A stretch of 64,000 nt of DNA. Source: an uncultured Pelagibacteraceae bacterium. GTDB lineage: Bacteria; Pseudomonadota; Alphaproteobacteria; Pelagibacterales; Pelagibacteraceae. The position numbers were made by a program, and so were the translations under genes. Below, in pieces: positions 21,085-53,760 of this stretch. The DNA is taken from the NCBI GenBank assembly GCA_902619495.1, contig CACNEM010000004.1, forward strand, positions 1 to 64,000, read 5' to 3'. Positions within the stretch are counted from its first letter, which is position 1. Each line of letters begins with the position of its first letter. Under the pieces are notes generated by a model, which was not told the DNA's origin, made no database searches, and saw only the letters and a list, made by a program, of their open reading frames with translations.

Positions 21085-21192
21085 TTACTTTTTTCTTCTT
21101 TTAAAACTACCTTTACCTTTTTTTGGTTTAATTACTCTTTTACGATACTTTTTTGTGAATAAATCAAAAGCTATCTTATTTCTTTTTTTCAA
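21085..21192 (-). CDS. ArfA-like alternative ribosome-rescue factor, about 35 aa, TTG start (not in supplied ORF track)
   Basis: Hand translation (M)KKRNKIAFDLFTKKYRKRVIKPKKGKGSFKRRKK; matches the ArfA segment LFRQRVEKNKKGKGSYxRK; TTGA overlap with upstream gene stop. Confidence 0.55.
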   Translation of the reverse strand: MKKRNKIAFDLFTKKYRKRVIKPKKGKGSFKRRKK

Positions 21193-21812
21193 ATATAGTA
21201 TCCCTCTTTATTATTTAGAATGAAATTTTCATCTGAAAATTTATCACTAATTTTTTTTCGAAGTCTATATATATGAGTTTCAACCGTATGAGTATCTGAC
21301 TCTAATGAATAATTCCAAACTAAAGATAAGATTGATTCCTTTGAAATTGCTTTATCCTTTTTTAAAAGTATTTCTAAAAGTCGAATTTCCTTTTCTGTAA
21401 GCATAATAAATTTATTATCTTTTTTTAATTTTTTTTCATTTTTATCCAAGAAATATGATTTTATTATGATAGAAGAGTTTTTATTAAATTGTTTCTTTGC
21501 ATCACATTTATCTACTAAATCATTAATTTCTTTGATTGAGGTAGGAAGATTTAAGATATTATCAAAATTTTTAAGTTCAATTTTCTTTTTATTTGTCGCT
21601 AAAATCTTGAAACAATCAGATGAATTATAGATATTTTCTAGTTTATTATTTTGTAAGAATTGTTCATGAAAGATGAATCCATGAAGATTTTTTTTTATTT
21701 CAGATAAGTCGTTTTTATTATAAATTAAATTAAATTTTAAAAAGTTTTTTAGTTCGTTTAAAGTTGAAAAAAAACTTTCTGGCCCGTAAATTAAAATATT
21801 AAGTTTATGCAT
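21189..21812 (-). CDS. OmpR-type winged-helix response-regulator-like protein with degenerate receiver
   Basis: C-terminal LTEKEIRLLEILL...HTVETHIYRLRKKI..EGYYI; N-terminal receiver-like domain lacks the canonical Asp/Lys residues. Confidence 0.8.
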   Translation of the reverse strand: MHKLNILIYGPESFFSTLNELKNFLKFNLIYNKNDLSEIKKNLHGFIFHEQFLQNNKLENIYNSSDCFKILATNKKKIELKNFDNILNLPTSIKEINDLVDKCDAKKQFNKNSSIIIKSYFLDKNEKKLKKDNKFIMLTEKEIRLLEILLKKDKAISKESILSLVWNYSLESDTHTVETHIYRLRKKISDKFSDENFILNNKEGYYI

Positions 21813-34766: not shown

Positions 34767-34770
34767 TGAA

Positions 34771-35880
34771 TTATAATGATAAACCTCGATTAGAGATTAC
34801 TTTACTAAATTTTTTTAATGTCTCGTTGTTCTTAATATTTTTTACAATTATTTCTTTGAATGGATCTAAATATTTATTTTGTTTAAAAAAGCTATGAGTA
34901 GCGTCAACTCCTAAACTCATGATAGTGTTTTCGGGTTTTCTGCTATTATAAAATTCATTTAACGCATAACTGTTTTTTATAGATATACCTAACCCCACAT
35001 AATATTTAATAATTTCTTTTAATCTTTTAATATCCCTAAGAACAAGATTAAAACCTTGTCCAGCTACAGGATGAATGGTGTGCAAACCCTCTCCAAGAAT
35101 TAATATATTTTTTTGGTGATACTGTCTTCTTAAAGTTAGTGAGATTGGATAAGATTGAATATTACTAATAGTTATACCTTTTTTGCACTTTAGTATCTCT
35201 ATTATTTTTTCTTTAACTAAATTTGTAATTTTTTTAGAATTATTTTCGAAGAAATATTTTTTTACGCTCCAAACAAATGAGAAATAATTTTTCGAAAAAG
35301 GGAGTATAGCTAATGGTCCCTCTTTTAAAAAAAATTGGCTTGTGTTTAAAGTTTTAAAATTGTGCCTTACATAGCCTGTTATAGCTACTTCTTTATAATT
35401 CTTCTTAATAGATCTTGTCTTAATTATTTTATCATAAATTTTAGATTGTCCGCCTATACAGAGGATAATTAAATCATAATTTTTTAACTCTTCTAAGTTT
35501 TTAACATCCTTTTTTATTAATCTAATTTTATTTTTTGAAATTTCTTTCAATAATAAACTTTTAATTTTGTCATTTTCAAAGACATACATAAGATTTGAAT
35601 TAGCTTCGTTAAGATTTAAAAAATTTATTTTTTCTTTGGAAGTTTCGTAAAAAAGCTCAATTTTTTTTGAGGGCCAGAAGAACTTTTGTCCTAAAGTAGT
35701 GATATTTTGATTAATGAACTTAAAATTTGTATCAGAAATAGCAGTAGTTCTTTTATCTGCGTTTTTTGTGCCTTTTTTTGCTATTAGATTTACATCTATA
35801 CCTGGAACTTTAGCTAAAACTGTAGCTGTCATTAAGCCTGAAAGACCGTCTCCGACAATGCAAATTCTTTGTTTTATCAT
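34771..35880 (-). CDS. UbiH-family FAD-dependent monooxygenase (start corrected from 36075)
   Basis: RICIVGDGLSGLMTATVL, GEGLHTIHPVAGQGFNLVLRD. Confidence 0.85.
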   Translation of the reverse strand: MIKQRICIVGDGLSGLMTATVLAKVPGIDVNLIAKKGTKNADKRTTAISDTNFKFINQNITTLGQKFFWPSKKIELFYETSKEKINFLNLNEANSNLMYVFENDKIKSLLLKEISKNKIRLIKKDVKNLEELKNYDLIILCIGGQSKIYDKIIKTRSIKKNYKEVAITGYVRHNFKTLNTSQFFLKEGPLAILPFSKNYFSFVWSVKKYFFENNSKKITNLVKEKIIEILKCKKGITISNIQSYPISLTLRRQYHQKNILILGEGLHTIHPVAGQGFNLVLRDIKRLKEIIKYYVGLGISIKNSYALNEFYNSRKPENTIMSLGVDATHSFFKQNKYLDPFKEIIVKNIKNNETLKKFSKVISNRGLSL

Positions 35881-45878: not shown

Positions 45879-46287
45879 AATTATAGGTAAATACATTAAA
45901 GATTTAGATTTTAGTATCCCTAACACAAAAACATTCTTTTTACTTACAAAAAATATTTCAAATTATAAAATTAATATTGATATCAAGAGTGAACGAATTA
46001 AACAAAATATAATCGAAATTTTTACTACATTAAGTTTAACCCCAACACGAAATGATTTTGAAAAGATAAATACGAAAATTATATTTGCAACGATAATAGA
46101 ACTCACTAATGAAAAAATTGAAAAGACTGAAATAGAAAAAATTGTACTTATAGAAGTACCTTCAGAAATCTACATTGAACTGAGACAAATTTTTGTAGGG
46201 TTATTCAAAAACTCTGGATTCAAAGATATCAAAATAAGTGAAAAAGTAGATTTTAAAAAACTTTATGAAATGAGAAATATTCAATAG
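45868..46287 (+). CDS. secB: Protein export chaperone SecB
   Basis: KYIKDLDFSIPN N-terminus, position between fxsA and dnaQ. Confidence 0.82.
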   Translation: MNYKIIGKYIKDLDFSIPNTKTFFLLTKNISNYKINIDIKSERIKQNIIEIFTTLSLTPTRNDFEKINTKIIFATIIELTNEKIEKTEIEKIVLIEVPSEIYIELRQIFVGLFKNSGFKDIKISEKVDFKKLYEMRNIQ

Positions 46288-46943
46288 AAGTTTTTTTTTA
46301 TTTCCTTTTTTAAAAAATCTTTATGAAGTTTAATTTCTTCATTTGATATTTTTAATATTCTTTTGTTATAATTGTTATTTTTAACGGCACCTTTTTCTAG
46401 ATTGATAGATGATAAATTAAACTTTGGTTCTTTTACATCTAATAAATTTATATAAACTTCTCTTAAAAGCTCACAATCTAACAAAGCGTTATGTTTTGTT
46501 CTTTTTGAAAGATCAATATTAAATTTTTTACATAAAGCGTCTAATGAATTAGACGTACCTGGATACTTATTCCTTGCTATCTCGAGTGAGTCAATAACAA
46601 ATCTTTTTTCGATTAGCTCTTTTTTATTTATTGAATTTAATTCGCCGTTTAAAAAACCTAAGTCAAATGAAGCGTTGTGAATAATTATTTTTTTTCCTCT
46701 TACAAATTCTAAAAATTCATCTGCAATCTGGTCAAATGTCTTTTTATCACTTAAAAATTCTGTTGAAAAACCATGAATTTTAAAAGCTTCATCGGGAACG
46801 TTTCTTTTAGGATTTATAAATTTATGAAAAGTTTTACCAGTAGCTATAAGATCGCTAGTTTCAATGCAAGCGATTTCAACAATTTTATGACCATCTTTAT
46901 AAGATAAACCTGTCGTTTCAGTATCTAGAAATATTTCATTCAT
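46281..46943 (-). CDS. dnaQ: DNA polymerase III epsilon subunit (proofreading exonuclease)
   Basis: EIFLDTETTGLSYKDGHKIVEIACIE, HNASFDLGFLN, HNALLDCELL. Confidence 0.95.
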   Translation of the reverse strand: MNEIFLDTETTGLSYKDGHKIVEIACIETSDLIATGKTFHKFINPKRNVPDEAFKIHGFSTEFLSDKKTFDQIADEFLEFVRGKKIIIHNASFDLGFLNGELNSINKKELIEKRFVIDSLEIARNKYPGTSNSLDALCKKFNIDLSKRTKHNALLDCELLREVYINLLDVKEPKFNLSSINLEKGAVKNNNYNKRILKISNEEIKLHKDFLKKEIKKNFY

Positions 46944-47502
46944 ATAATTTTAATATATCTAAAAGATTTTTTTTTAAAGTCTTTTTATTCTTTTCATTAA
47001 CAATTATATGATCACAGTATTTAATTTTTCTAGCATCACTTAATTGTTTTTTATTTAACATTGTAAAAAGCTCTTTGCTACCGCCCTTTTTTTTAAATCT
47101 TTTCAGCCTTATACTTTTACTAGCTTTAACAAAAATGATTTTGTCGAAATTCTTCATTAATTTACTCTCTATTAAAAGAGGTATTTCAAGAAAAATAAAA
47201 TTTTTTTTCTTATTTCTTTTAATAAATTTTTTCATTTCATCTCTAACAATAGGATGAATTATCTTTTCCATTATTTTTAAATTATTTTTATTCTCTAGGA
47301 TTTTTTGTTTAAGTGACTTTTTTATATTTTTTGTATTTCTGAATTTGAATATTTTTAAGATTTTTTTCTTAAAACTTTTTTTTTGGTATAACTTTTTTAC
47401 AACTAAATCAGCACTGAAAAATGGCCCTTTTCCAGCTGAAAGAATTTTACTTACTGTTGTTTTACCAGATGATATTGAACCAGTTATTCCAATTTTTTTC
47501 AT
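46936..47502 (-). CDS. coaE: Dephospho-CoA kinase
   Basis: KIGITGSISSGKTTVSKIL, LEIPLLIES. Confidence 0.94.
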   Translation of the reverse strand: MKKIGITGSISSGKTTVSKILSAGKGPFFSADLVVKKLYQKKSFKKKILKIFKFRNTKNIKKSLKQKILENKNNLKIMEKIIHPIVRDEMKKFIKRNKKKNFIFLEIPLLIESKLMKNFDKIIFVKASKSIRLKRFKKKGGSKELFTMLNKKQLSDARKIKYCDHIIVNEKNKKTLKKNLLDILKLYE

Positions 47503-48320
47503 TTAAGTTTAGATATTAATAATTCTATTAATTTTTCATCTATTTCTGGGTTTACTTTATTCCAAAGATAAAAGGCTTTTTGTCCTTGATATATGAACAT
47601 TTCGAGACCATTAAACACTTTAACTTCTTTATCTTTCAAATATTTAAGAGTTTTGGTTTCGAGAGGGTTATAAATTGTATCGATAAAAATTAAGTTGTTT
47701 TTTACCCCCTCAAAATTGAAATCAAAGTCTTTTTCATTTTTTAAACCCAAACTAGTAGCATTTACAATAATTTCAAAATTTTTAATCTCATTCTTTAAAT
47801 TTTTCCATTCTAATATATTAATCTCCTTAAATTTTTTCTTTAAAAAAATACACTTTTCTCTAGTTCTATTAATTATTGAAATATCTTTGACACCAGATTT
47901 TTGTAATGACAATATCACAGACGGAGAAACACCTCCTGCACCTATAATTAAAACTTTTTTTTGAGAAGCAATGTCAATTTTTTTTAAGTAAGCAGCTTGC
48001 AGACCATATACATCGGTATTTTCTCCTATCAAAGTCCCTTCATTATTAATATATAAAGTATTTACAGAACTTGTTATCTCAGCATCATTAATTAAAGTAT
48101 CTAGGTAAGAAATAATTTTTTGTTTATAAGGCAAAGTAACATTTAACCCGCTTAGCTCTTTTTCTCTAACTCTATTAATTATTGTTTTTAAATTATTTTC
48201 ATTAGCTTCGATTATGGAATAGCTTGCATCAATTTTATATTTTTGAAACCAATAATTGTGAAGTACAGGTGATAAAGAGTGCTTAATAGGATTACCAATT
48301 ATACCGTATTTTTTTTTCAT
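47499..48320 (-). CDS. aroE: Shikimate dehydrogenase
   Basis: GIIGNPIKHSLSPVLHN, GLNVTLPYK, IGAGGVSPSVI. Confidence 0.96.
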   Translation of the reverse strand: MKKKYGIIGNPIKHSLSPVLHNYWFQKYKIDASYSIIEANENNLKTIINRVREKELSGLNVTLPYKQKIISYLDTLINDAEITSSVNTLYINNEGTLIGENTDVYGLQAAYLKKIDIASQKKVLIIGAGGVSPSVILSLQKSGVKDISIINRTREKCIFLKKKFKEINILEWKNLKNEIKNFEIIVNATSLGLKNEKDFDFNFEGVKNNLIFIDTIYNPLETKTLKYLKDKEVKVFNGLEMFIYQGQKAFYLWNKVNPEIDEKLIELLISKLK

Positions 48321-48901
48321 TTTTTATATTGATTAATATAGTTCAATATGTCTTTTATAGGCAAACCCATTATCGAGTTGCGATCACCTTTTATATATTC
48401 AAAAAGCTTAAAACCGTCTGCTTCAACTTGGTAAACACCGTAAGCTAATAGAGTTTCTGTCTGTATCTTATCTAAATAACTTTGTAATTCACTCTCAGAA
48501 AATTTTTTCATTTTAAGCTCTGAGGTCTCAGAATGATTCCATATCATGGCTCCATTTTTTGAAATACAAACTGAACTTATTAAATAATGTTTTGCATTAT
48601 TAAGTTTTTTTAATATTTTTAAAGCCTCTTCTCTGGACTTTGGCTTATTTATTAACTCATTGTTTAAGGAAATAACACTATCAGCACCTAAAACCAAAAT
48701 ATCAGGATTTTTGTTACTCACTTTGATTGATTTTATTTCTGCCAAATTCTTCGAAATTAATAATGGATCTGCTCCTTCATTTAATAGAGAATTCTTTACT
48801 TCATCTTCATCTACATTCGAAACAATTACATCGCATTCTATATTATGATTATCCAATATCTTTTTTCTAACACCGCTTTTTGAAGCTAAGATAATTTTCA
48901 T
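48317..48901 (-). CDS. Maf-like nucleotide pyrophosphatase
   Basis: IILASKSGVRKKIL, LGADSVI, GDRNSIMGLP. Confidence 0.93.
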   Translation of the reverse strand: MKIILASKSGVRKKILDNHNIECDVIVSNVDEDEVKNSLLNEGADPLLISKNLAEIKSIKVSNKNPDILVLGADSVISLNNELINKPKSREEALKILKKLNNAKHYLISSVCISKNGAMIWNHSETSELKMKKFSESELQSYLDKIQTETLLAYGVYQVEADGFKLFEYIKGDRNSIMGLPIKDILNYINQYKK

Positions 48902-49716
48902 TTATTTTTTTTTATTTCAATTATTTTTAAAATTGATGCTGCAGTTTCTTCTACAGATTTTCTAGTAACATCAATAATTGGCCAGTTATTTTTTTTAAAA
49001 AGAGTTTTTGAATCATTTACTTCTTTTTTAATATGATCTAAATCAGTATATTCTTTTAATTTATGATCTCTCATTATCGCTACTCTGTTTCTTCTTATAT
49101 CGGCTAATCTATCTGGATCGGCAGTAAGACCTACAATACATGCTGTTTTGTTTGTAACTAAGTCTGCTGGGACTTTCTGATCTAGAACCAAAGGAATGTT
49201 TACAGTTTTGTAACCTCTGTTAGCAAGATAGATCGAAGTTGGGGTCTTGCTTGTCCTACTTACACCTAGTAAAATAACATCTGCGCTACTTATATCATCA
49301 ACTTTTTTACCGTCATCATGCGACATCGTATATTGAATAGCTTCCATTCTTTTATAATAATCATCATCAAGGACATGCTGCGCGCTAGGTTTATGTATGG
49401 CTTTTTGGTTTAAAAGTTTAGAAAAGCTTAAAATTAAATTACCAAGTATACCAAAGCAAGGCACTTTATTTTTTTCGCTCTGACTAGAAATATACTTTGC
49501 GAGTTTTGTTTCTACAATTGTATATAAAATTAGAGAATTCTCTAACTTGATACATTCTTTAATTATTTTGTCTATCTGCTGTTCCGTACGAACGAAAGCA
49601 AACTCTTTTTTTTCATATTCAAAATTGGCAAACTGAGATTTTAAGGATAAAAATATTCTATCAAGAGTTTCACCTGTTGAGTCAGACACAAGATATACAT
49701 TGTATTTTTCGTTCAT
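48898..49716 (-). CDS. ppsR: Pyruvate, phosphate dikinase/PEP synthase regulatory protein (DUF299)
   Basis: YLVSDSTGETLDRIF, LLGVSRTSKTPTSIYLANRGYKTVNIPLV. Confidence 0.95.
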   Translation of the reverse strand: MNEKYNVYLVSDSTGETLDRIFLSLKSQFANFEYEKKEFAFVRTEQQIDKIIKECIKLENSLILYTIVETKLAKYISSQSEKNKVPCFGILGNLILSFSKLLNQKAIHKPSAQHVLDDDYYKRMEAIQYTMSHDDGKKVDDISSADVILLGVSRTSKTPTSIYLANRGYKTVNIPLVLDQKVPADLVTNKTACIVGLTADPDRLADIRRNRVAIMRDHKLKEYTDLDHIKKEVNDSKTLFKKNNWPIIDVTRKSVEETAASILKIIEIKKNK

Positions 49717-49989
49717 ATGATTGTTAATAAATATTTAATAAGTCGACTTTCTGCACCTTTGGTTAAAAATGATTCTAAAAAATTAACATGAGTTAACATT
49801 ATATAAACATTTAATTAGATGTTTATAATCTTGTTTTACTAATGTTTATAAGATTAATAAAGCCAACAAATTGGTGCTTTTTAAGAAAAGTTATTAAATT
49901 ATATCTGTATAAATCATGTATAAAAAGTTATATCTGCATTTAACAACCCCTAATAAAGAAACAATACTTTTAAAATACTTTTATTTTAT
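49717..49989. other. Candidate chromosomal replication origin (oriC)
   Basis: 273-bp AT-rich gap between ppsR(DUF299) and hemE; repeated ATGTTTATAA motifs, inverted TATAAACAT/ATGTTTATA, TTAAC-N5-TTAAC; flanking genes diverge. Confidence 0.65.
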
Positions 49990-50994
49990 ATGAGCAACTT
50001 AGGAAAAATTCTAACAAGTAAAAAGTCTTGCAAATCAGTTTGGTTCATGCGACAAGCCGGAAGATACCTACCTGAATTCAGAAAAATTCGATTGTTAAAT
50101 AAAGATTTCATAAAGCTTTGTTTGAATAGTCATTTAAGTTCAGAAATTACTCTTCAACCCATTAAAAGATTCAATTTAGACTCTGCTATTATATTTTCTG
50201 ATATTCTTATGGTTCCTTATGCATTGGGTCAAAAGATAACCTTCATAAAAGATCAAGGGCCAAAATTAAGCAGATTTGACCAAGAACTTTTTTTAGATAA
50301 TGATGAGAAAAGTTTTACAGAAAAGCTTAACCCAGTTTATAAAGCCATAGAATTAACCAGGAAAAAATTAGATAGAAATAAATCACTTATATCTTTTGTG
50401 GGCGCTCCATGGACATTGATTATTTACATGCTAAATTTTAAAAAAAATGAAAAAAATTTATATGAAGGTAAATTTCTTGAAAATAAGTACGATTTAAATA
50501 AAATTTTAAATATTCTGGTAAAATTCTTAAATATTCACATTGATAATCAAATAAAATCTGGAGCTGATGTTGTGCAAATATTTGACTCTTGGGCAGGTTT
50601 ACTACCTAATAAAAATATTAAAAATTTTTGTTACATACCAAACGCGAAAATAGTAGATTTTTGTAAAAAAAAGAAGATACCTAACATTTGTTTCCCAAAA
50701 GGAATAAAAAAGAAATTCAAAGAATTTAACGAGATAGTAAGGCCAGACGGTATAAATATTGATACTGAAATAAGTCCCTCATGGGCAAAAAAAAATCTAA
50801 AAGATGTAGTAATACAAGGAGGAATGGATCCAAAAGCACTCCTTAAACCCGAAGGACAAATGCTTGAGATAGCGGCTAAATATACCGAGACCTTTCAAGA
50901 CATCCCATATGTATTTAACTTGGGACATGGTTTACTTCCTGAGACAGATCCTGATAAAGTACAAAAATTAATTAATTTTTATAGGAATTTTTAA
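49990..50994 (+). CDS. hemE: Uroporphyrinogen decarboxylase
   Basis: VWFMRQAGRYLPEFR, FSDILMVPYALG, FNLGHGLLPETDPDKV. Confidence 0.97.
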   Translation: MSNLGKILTSKKSCKSVWFMRQAGRYLPEFRKIRLLNKDFIKLCLNSHLSSEITLQPIKRFNLDSAIIFSDILMVPYALGQKITFIKDQGPKLSRFDQELFLDNDEKSFTEKLNPVYKAIELTRKKLDRNKSLISFVGAPWTLIIYMLNFKKNEKNLYEGKFLENKYDLNKILNILVKFLNIHIDNQIKSGADVVQIFDSWAGLLPNKNIKNFCYIPNAKIVDFCKKKKIPNICFPKGIKKKFKEFNEIVRPDGINIDTEISPSWAKKNLKDVVIQGGMDPKALLKPEGQMLEIAAKYTETFQDIPYVFNLGHGLLPETDPDKVQKLINFYRNF

Positions 50995-51986
50995 TGGATA
51001 AAAATCATCCAGATGTAAAATTTGGTAAGTCTGGGGTCTTACTAGTTAATCTTGGAACTCCAGACTCAACAAGTTGGTGGGACATTAGAAAATATTTACG
51101 AGAATTTCTTTCAGATAGAAGAGTAATAGAGGTAAACCCAATTATTTGGCAGTTAATTTTGAACTTATTTATTTTAACTTTTAGACCTTCAAAAACAGCC
51201 CATGCATACAAAAAAATATGGAGAAAAGAGAGCAACGAATCTCCCTTGCTATTCTTTACAAGAAGTCAAGCTTACAAACTTAATAAAAAAATTGGCAATG
51301 AGAAAGTAATTGTTGATTTTGCAATGCGATACGGAAATCCAAGTATTGTCTCTAGATTAAACATCCTAAAAGATAAAGGTTGTGATAATATTATCATTTT
51401 ACCTTTGTATCCACAGTATGCAGCCGCGACTACAGCAACAGTATGTGACGAGGTTTACAGATCTCTGATGAAAATGAGATGGCAACCAAGTCTACAAATA
51501 ATACCTCATTATGAAAGCAACGCTATGTACATAGATGCGTTAATTAATAGTATAAAGAAAAAAATTGATGAAATTGACTGGAAACCAGATTTAATTTTAT
51601 CTTCTTATCACGGTATCCCAAAATCATATTTTGATAAAGGGGATCCATACCATTGCTATTGCCACAAGACTACAAGACTACTGAGTGAAAAGTTCAATGA
51701 TATTGAAATACAAACTTCCTTTCAATCTAGGTTTGGACCTCAAGAGTGGCTCACTCCTTATACAGATAAAACTTTAGAAACATTACCATCTAAAGGTGTA
51801 AAGAATTTATTGGTTATTTGTCCTGGGTTCTCATCGGATTGTGTTGAAACATTAGAAGAAATCAACATTCAAGGAAGAGAAAGCTTTATAAGTAATGGAG
51901 GAAAAAACTTCGACTTAATACCTTGTTTAAATGATAATTTAGATCATATCGAATTATTTAATGGATTAGTGAAAAAGTATCTATAA
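50994..51986 (+). CDS. hemH: Ferrochelatase
   Basis: VLLVNLGTPDSTSWWDIRKYLREFLSDRRVIE, SYHGIPKSYFDKGDPYHCYC. Confidence 0.97.
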   Translation: MDKNHPDVKFGKSGVLLVNLGTPDSTSWWDIRKYLREFLSDRRVIEVNPIIWQLILNLFILTFRPSKTAHAYKKIWRKESNESPLLFFTRSQAYKLNKKIGNEKVIVDFAMRYGNPSIVSRLNILKDKGCDNIIILPLYPQYAAATTATVCDEVYRSLMKMRWQPSLQIIPHYESNAMYIDALINSIKKKIDEIDWKPDLILSSYHGIPKSYFDKGDPYHCYCHKTTRLLSEKFNDIEIQTSFQSRFGPQEWLTPYTDKTLETLPSKGVKNLLVICPGFSSDCVETLEEINIQGRESFISNGGKNFDLIPCLNDNLDHIELFNGLVKKYL

Positions 51987-52418
51987 ATGAATTTGTATTT
52001 GTTATTTAAATCATTGCATCTAATTTCAGTTATCTCTTGGATGGCTGGTTTATTATACTTACCAAGAATTTTTGTTTATCACTCAGAAGCACAACATGAG
52101 TCACAAAAAGCAGTTTTTAAAACAATGGAGAGAAAGCTATATAATTATATAATGATGCCAGCAATGTTACTTTCTTGGCTCTTTGGAATTTTATTAATTC
52201 ACAGTCTTGGCTTTTCAGTTTTTTCAGAGCTTTGGATGCAAATAAAAACTCTTGGAGTTATCATTTTGACGTTTTATCATTTTTCACTAGGTAAATACTT
52301 GAGTGATTTCGCTATAGATAATAACCTGAAATCTTCAAAATTTTTCAGGATTTACAACGAAATCCCGACAATTATACTTATAGTAGTTATATTTGTGGTA
52401 GTATTTAAACCTTTATAA
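51987..52418 (+). CDS. hemJ: Protoporphyrinogen oxidase HemJ
   Basis: LFKSLHLISVISWMAGLLYLPRIFVYH. Confidence 0.93.
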   Translation: MNLYLLFKSLHLISVISWMAGLLYLPRIFVYHSEAQHESQKAVFKTMERKLYNYIMMPAMLLSWLFGILLIHSLGFSVFSELWMQIKTLGVIILTFYHFSLGKYLSDFAIDNNLKSSKFFRIYNEIPTIILIVVIFVVVFKPL

Positions 52419-52485
52419 ATAGGGGTTGAATTTTTCGAAAAAAGTCATATATTTTAATTACATTCCTCTAATTAATTTCAATAAC

Positions 52486-53760
52486 ATGAATTTACAAGAA
52501 CTAAAGCAAAAAAACCCTGCAGAACTTATTAGTGAAGCTGAAAAATTAGGCATAGAAAATCCTAGCACTTTAAGGAAGCAAGAAATACTTTTTGCTATTT
52601 TAAAAAAATTAGCTGAGAAGAATGAACAGATTACTGCAACCGGTGTTCTAGAAGTTTTGCAAGATGGATTTGGTTTCTTAAGAGCAATAGAGTCTAATTA
52701 TCTTCCTGGACCAGACGATATATATGTTAGCCCAAGTCAGATCAGAAGATTTGGTTTAAGAACTGGGGACTCAGTTGAAGGTGAAATTAGAGGCCCTAAA
52801 GATGCAGAGAGATATTTTGCTCTTCTTAAGGTGAATAAAATTAATTTTGATGATCCCGATAAAGGAAAAAATAAAATTGCTTTTGATAATTTGACGCCGT
52901 TGTATCCTAATGAAAGAATAAAGTTAGAAGTCGAAACTACTAAAATAGAAAAAAAACCTGACAACACTGCAAGACTGATCGATCTCGTTAGTCCTATTGG
53001 GAAAGGACAAAGATCCTTAATAGTTTCACCTCCGAGAGCTGGTAAGACAATTATTCTTCAAAATATCGCACAATCTATTACAGCTAATCATCCTGAATGT
53101 TATCTGATGGTATTACTTATTGATGAGAGACCAGAAGAAGTAACTGATATGCAAAGATCTGTCAAAGGTGAAGTAGTTGCATCTACATTTGATGAACCAG
53201 CGTCTAGGCACGTTGCTGTTGCAGAGATGGTTATCGAAAAAGCCAAAAGATTAGTTGAACATAAAAAAGATGTAGTAATATTGCTCGACTCGATCACAAG
53301 ACTTGGAAGAGCATATAATGCTGTAATACCAAGTTCTGGAAAAGTTTTAACTGGAGGTGTAGACGCAAATGCACTGCAAAGACCCAAAAGATTTTTTGGA
53401 GCTGCAAGGAATGTTGAAGAAGGTGGTTCTCTCACAATAATTTCAACTGCATTAATAGATACTGGTAGCAGAATGGATGAAGTAATATTTGAAGAATTTA
53501 AAGGAACTGGTAATTCTGAATTAATATTAGACAGAAAAGTAGCGGATAAAAGAATTTATCCTGCACTAGATATTACAAGATCAGGCACTAGAAGAGAAGA
53601 ATTGCTGTTTGCAAAAGATGAACTTTCTAAAATGAATGTTTTAAGAAGAATCATAAGTCCTATGGGTACAATGGATGGTATAGAATTTTTAATCTCAAAA
53701 CTAAAGAATACAAAAAATAATTCAGATTTTTTTGACTCTATGAACAAATCTGCTAATTAA
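52486..53760 (+). CDS. rho: Transcription termination factor Rho (start corrected from 52426)
   Basis: [41 protein letters not shown]. Confidence 0.98.

Follow-up and report, generated by a model that had tools for sequence, protein, structure and literature searches.

The noncoding gap of 273 bp at positions 49717-49989 of the 64,000-nucleotide stretch of DNA analyzed here (hereinafter, the window) is, with a probability that we put at about 0.92, the chromosomal replication origin (oriC) of a SAR11 (Pelagibacteraceae) bacterium. This reading was advanced in the initial annotation and is supported by sequence comparison, which brings out the synteny that defines the location of the gap, the conservation of the gap and its motifs, the box motif included, in the genus and the family, and the GC skew minimum in a complete genome of the same family (G510). 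SAR11 ranks among the most abundant groups of bacteria in the ocean; the source of the window is a draft Pelagibacteraceae genome (870 kb in 23 contigs, 77% complete) to which, among named genomes, SAR11 single-cell genomes and HIMB058 are closest. Well supported as an oriC, the gap appears to be ordinary in kind and location, and the new element, relative to the open literature searched, is a putative lineage-specific DnaA box: no description of SAR11 origin mapping or of a SAR11 DnaA box was found in that literature (subscription papers and DoriC entries lay outside the search).

At 20% GC (19.8% as counted in the sequence, against 29.7% for the window), the gap is AT-rich, as is characteristic of hemE/COG1806-type origins, and a check of the ORFs bears out that no true intergenic gap of the window is longer; a nominally longer one, at 34767-35713, was rejected as an artefact of the choice of overlapping ORFs within a coding ORF. 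Pfam likewise confirms the reported flanking genes, the divergent ppsR (DUF299, COG1806; 48898-49716, minus strand; PF03618, E = 4e-91) and hemE (49990-50994, plus strand; PF01208, E = 7e-81), which form the left and right boundaries of the gap within a cluster with the gene order dnaQ-coaE-aroE-maf-ppsR, gap, hemE-hemH-hemJ-rho. The left part of this cluster (dnaQ, coaE, aroE and maf; 46281-48901, minus strand) was identified by Pfam matches; in the right part (50994-53760, plus strand), delineated as ORFs, rho was assigned by Pfam and the hemH-like and hemJ-like genes were named by eye. Pfam also confirms secB in the window, and parA and parB about 19 kb from the gap. In Caulobacter and Rickettsia, the origin has hemE on one side and the COG1806 gene on the other (PMC1914354), and the present gap occupies the same position inside a conserved cluster (ppsR, hemE, maf, aroE, coaE, dnaQ and rho by Pfam) whose gene order matches that around those two origins.

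The same two divergent genes enclose the gap in 50 of 50 congeners, with a length of 263-288 bp; in a second set of 78 resolvable loci, from genomes that partly overlap the 50, the gene pair is the same and the median gap is 273 bp, and other genera of the family keep the layout as well (261-289 bp). A constant length would also be expected if the gap were simply the divergent promoter region shared by ppsR and hemE, with the conserved motifs being transcription factor sites: divergent genes require promoters, and gap length by itself was dropped as evidence of an origin because a control divergent gap, hisB/hslV, is equally constant (sd 3.6 bp). This explanation nevertheless appears improbable, taking into account that DnaA-box-like sites occur at 6.68 per kb in the hemE gap and at 0 in hisB/hslV, where TTATNAACA is absent; that in another family of the same order (f2) ppsR is gone from the edge of the gap, yet maf, a gap of 271-281 bp and hemE are retained, together with boxes close to the canonical form (CCACCTGTGGATAA and TTGTGGGCAA, for example); and that the skew minimum of the complete family member G510 falls at the orthologous gap.

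The alignment of the gap across relatives, a check that had been proposed beforehand, revealed conservation of the repeats in both the genus and the family. The mean identity between the window gap and 41 other gaps is 67%, and despite this mean, short blocks stand out in which each column is at least 80% conserved, namely TGTTAATAAA, TAACA-N-TAATTAACA, AACA, TGTT, TGTTTATAA, TGTATAAAA-N2-TGTATAAA, GTTATAT and AACA-N3-CCTA, the predicted binding sites being better conserved in relatives than the rest of the gap. Conserved noncoding blocks near a start codon might belong to a structured RNA or a hemE leader, but the chance of this is close to negligible considering that a search of Rfam at E up to 1 matched nothing in the gap and that the blocks are short box-like repeats along its whole length. 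As for the neighbourhood in other lineages, in genus g6 (G498, G221) hemE is far from dnaA and there is no ppsR match within 3 kb around hemE, which suggests that the origin neighbourhood is rearranged in that genus; in genus g284, a complete genome (G520:C1:358100-361000) has hemE split in two, with stop codons.

Upon re-reading of 49717-49989, the repeats named in the initial annotation were all found in place: ATGTTTATAA at 49819 and 49842, ATATAAACAT at 49801, TTATATCTG(T/C)AT at 49899 and 49928, TGTATAAA at 49906 and 49917, and TTAAC at 49783 and 49793, with another TTAAC at 49940. A third box, TGTTAATAA at 49722-49730, had been overlooked and is among the best conserved. On the minus strand, three DnaA-box-like sites can be delineated: TTATTAACA at 49722-49730, an exact TTATNAACA within a run (49722-49731) in which every column reaches at least 80% conservation over 42 gaps; TTATAAACA at 49820-49828, also an exact match, with the central box pair of f2 being closer to canonical; and TTATAAACA at 49843-49851, the best conserved, where the conserved run coincides with the consensus exactly. 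On the plus strand, three direct repeats ending in AACA (49783-49810, with AACA at 49785, 49795 and 49806, a spacing of about 10-12 bp, and conserved runs within 49784-49809) would constitute a low-affinity DnaA array, and a conserved direct repeat, TGTATAAA-N3-TGTATAAA followed by GTTATAT (49906-49933; conserved runs 49906-49914, 49917-49924 and 49927-49933), might represent weak DnaA sites or the unwinding region.

The canonical DnaA box, TTATNCACA, has no exact copy in the window gap, and the variant TTATNAACA has three, against 0.11 expected; TATAAACAT also occurs three times, against 0.04 expected (in both cases, 0 of 2000 dinucleotide shuffles reached 3). The variant is strongly enriched and also conserved, making up a candidate cluster of boxes in a lineage form, and no other 273-bp stretch of the 64 kb is as rich in TTATN(A/C)ACA. 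Across the gaps of the genus, TTATNAACA is present at 2.19 per gap versus 0.11 in shuffled sequences, and canonical TTATNCACA at 0.02; put differently, sites of the form TTATN?ACA have A as the sixth base 2.19 times per gap and C 0.02 times. The respective values are 2.45 and 0.60 in g7, the commonest genus drawn and presumably Pelagibacter proper, and 0.50 and 0.50 in f2. The hemE gap is the densest box cluster in the sampled 400 kb of G510 and 380 kb of the congener G122, and in three other congeners it is not the densest cluster of exact boxes. Comparison across the genus, the family and f2 supports the suggestion of a lineage-specific DnaA box in ATGTTTATAA. The consensus IHF site WATCAANNNNTTR is absent from the window gap; HU/IHF-family proteins are present at 2-3 per genome. 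Against the origin reading stand the lack of an exact canonical box and of an IHF consensus, the three congeners just mentioned, and stability: the twelve least stable 40-bp stretches of the window all lie elsewhere.

The TTAAC pair had been likened to a CtrA site one base short, and while the spacing holds (TTAA-N6-TTAAC), the resemblance to CtrA sites lacks a protein to go with it: in a 98%-complete congener, no regulator scored the 350 bits required for the CtrA class, the best value among the proteins scanned being about 149, and the OmpR-family regulators found in that genome are PhoB, two other full-length proteins and one degenerate. A published survey also reports the absence of a ctrA ortholog from Pelagibacter (PMC2877005). 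The motif TTAA-N7-TTAA occurs once in the gap (49724-49738) and 13 times in the window, against 19.5 expected, and CtrA sites are optional in hemE/COG1806-type origins, being absent in some predicted members (PMC1914354). With no CtrA protein over the cut-off and CtrA-like sites no more frequent in the window than chance would give, CtrA binding at the gap was rejected, and since no CtrA was found, it is more plausible to place the TTAAC pair in the low-affinity DnaA array. The window itself encodes, at 21189-21812 on the minus strand, an OmpR-family protein with a normal DNA-binding domain and a degenerate receiver domain that has relatives in the genus and the family.

The cumulative GC skew, another of the proposed checks, was assessed in G510, a complete 1.16-Mb genome sampled as 20 stretches of 20 kb, and its minimum, at 1,090,854, is 549 bp from the orthologous gap (1,090,030-1,090,305). 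The maximum is near 500-540 kb, with the antipode at about 510 kb; both skew and gene direction turn upward at the gap-bearing stretch and downward at 480-540 kb, close to the antipode, and 69% of gene bases are on the leading strand. The fine position of the minimum owes something to local gene divergence, of which the global pattern is independent. Weighing against the origin reading, raw GC skew in the genus is weak, with no clear switch in draft contigs from the genus (G121, G122) or in an f2 contig (G073). The third-position difference between leading and lagging genes in four genus contigs is +0.034, +0.016, -0.064 and -0.036; in G121 (-0.064) and G122 (-0.036) it is the lagging genes that have the greater third-position GC skew, the opposite of G510 (+0.119). 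A clean third-position switch of opposite sign at the G121 gap was not upheld in G014, G060 and G122 and was excluded from the evidence.

In many bacteria, the origin is at dnaA, and in several of the genomes analyzed here this gene is fairly near, about 60-73 kb from the hemE gap (70 kb in G510), with some assemblies, such as G510, rotated to dnaA. An origin at dnaA, with the hemE gap as a relic, is nonetheless very hard to reconcile with the pattern in G510, where between the gap and dnaA (1,130-1,150 kb) the skew is already strongly leading (+0.121) and 92% of the genes are on the plus strand, and therefore the switch occurs before dnaA, not at dnaA. Furthermore, inspection of eleven sequences of the rpsT-dnaA spacer revealed no box cluster of either type, and we consider this alternative highly improbable. 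In the genus, this spacer contains conserved elements upstream of dnaA, for example AAGTTGTA and CTATCT...CGAT...ACAACC, that are not DnaA boxes and possibly have to do with dnaA regulation. The placement of the origin in the hemE gap has practical implications in that methods that estimate growth rates in the ocean from origin-to-terminus read depth need the position of the SAR11 origin. GRiD, for one, puts dnaA-bearing fragments at the origin (PMC7852909), contrary to the location of dnaA in the genomes analyzed here, some 60-73 kb from the hemE gap.

How could such an origin work? We infer that DnaA would bind the strong TTAT(T/A)AACA boxes at 49722, 49820 and 49843, and would then spread to the weaker AACA repeats at 49783-49810 and probably also to the TGTATAAA repeats at 49906-49924, with the AT-rich, hemE-proximal side opening near 49940-49985. 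A possible unwinding module is located at 49940-49955 on the plus strand, where box-like TTAACA is followed by a short GC patch, CCCC, and then by two CTA/ATA trios, in alignment with TTATTCACA-spacer-NTA repeats in relatives. The trio signal of the window alone is not significant (two trios, shuffle P 0.56). Relatives carry NTA triplets near hemE as well, preceded by a box (TTATTCACA or ATTAACA) and a short GC patch, and TA is in excess at lags 3 and 6, with counts that pool related sequences (65 and 67 versus 25 and 22 in shuffled sequences in g1; 51 and 44 versus 14 and 13 in g7).

A possible explanation for the altered boxes is suggested by the initiator itself. Next to the DNA-reading helix of DnaA, F-AN-RDHTT replaces F-GG-RDHTT in 33 of 33 sequences from the genus; the segment ahead of the helix is FGGRDHTT in f2, FSN in g7, and FTG or FSG in other genera. 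In a broad, not exhaustive draw of 385 genomes of the class, 260 have the exact FGGRDHTT-coding pattern and just one, the source of the window, has the FAN pattern, those with neither having other variants or no assembled match. The helix of E. coli DnaA, residues 434-451, reads the TnCACA part of the box (PMC5742627), and therefore the altered residues of DnaA adjoin the protein region responsible for reading the altered portion of the box. Thus, the Pelagibacteraceae box might have shifted from TTATNCACA to TTATNAACA together with the replacement of the GG before RDHTT, a shift complete in this genus, through co-evolution of the initiator and origin recognition, a proposition that we regard as evenly balanced. 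The change in the DnaA signature may have caused that in the boxes; shared ancestry alone could produce the parallel, and AT-ward mutation could have driven the C-to-A change. A strict one-to-one link, with N at the second signature position accompanying A-type boxes, was rejected, as the FTG and FSG genera also have mostly TTATNAACA. The altered box and the DnaA signature offer a directly testable example of the way in which an initiator and its binding sites may evolve in concert; given the altered box, a search for canonical boxes would miss the present origin.

Among known systems, the gap resembles Caulobacter crescentus Cori and Rickettsia prowazekii oriC in its boundary genes, AT-richness, cluster of initiator-box-like sites and small noncoding extent (PMC1914354), and differs in that it is shorter (273 bp versus about 384-404 bp), contains no canonical box and belongs to a lineage in which no CtrA gene was found. 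The box, short GC patch, NTA repeats and 3-bp periodicity in relatives recall the DnaA-trio basal unwinding system (PMC8287927), which calls for a DnaA box, a spacer and at least 3 trios, whereas the window gap shows two trios only. A likeness for the altered box is offered by the epsilonproteobacterial origins, with class-specific DnaA boxes of core TTCAC, where a lineage-specific box also goes with residues changed around the N-terminus of the DNA-reading helix (PMC5043019). In that group, the box keeps its CAC core and DnaA differs at the equivalents of residues 435 and 438-439 (PMC5043019), whereas in DnaA of the present genus, RDHTT is intact, GG becomes AN just upstream (equivalent to 430-431, in our own numbering), and the core C of the box becomes A.
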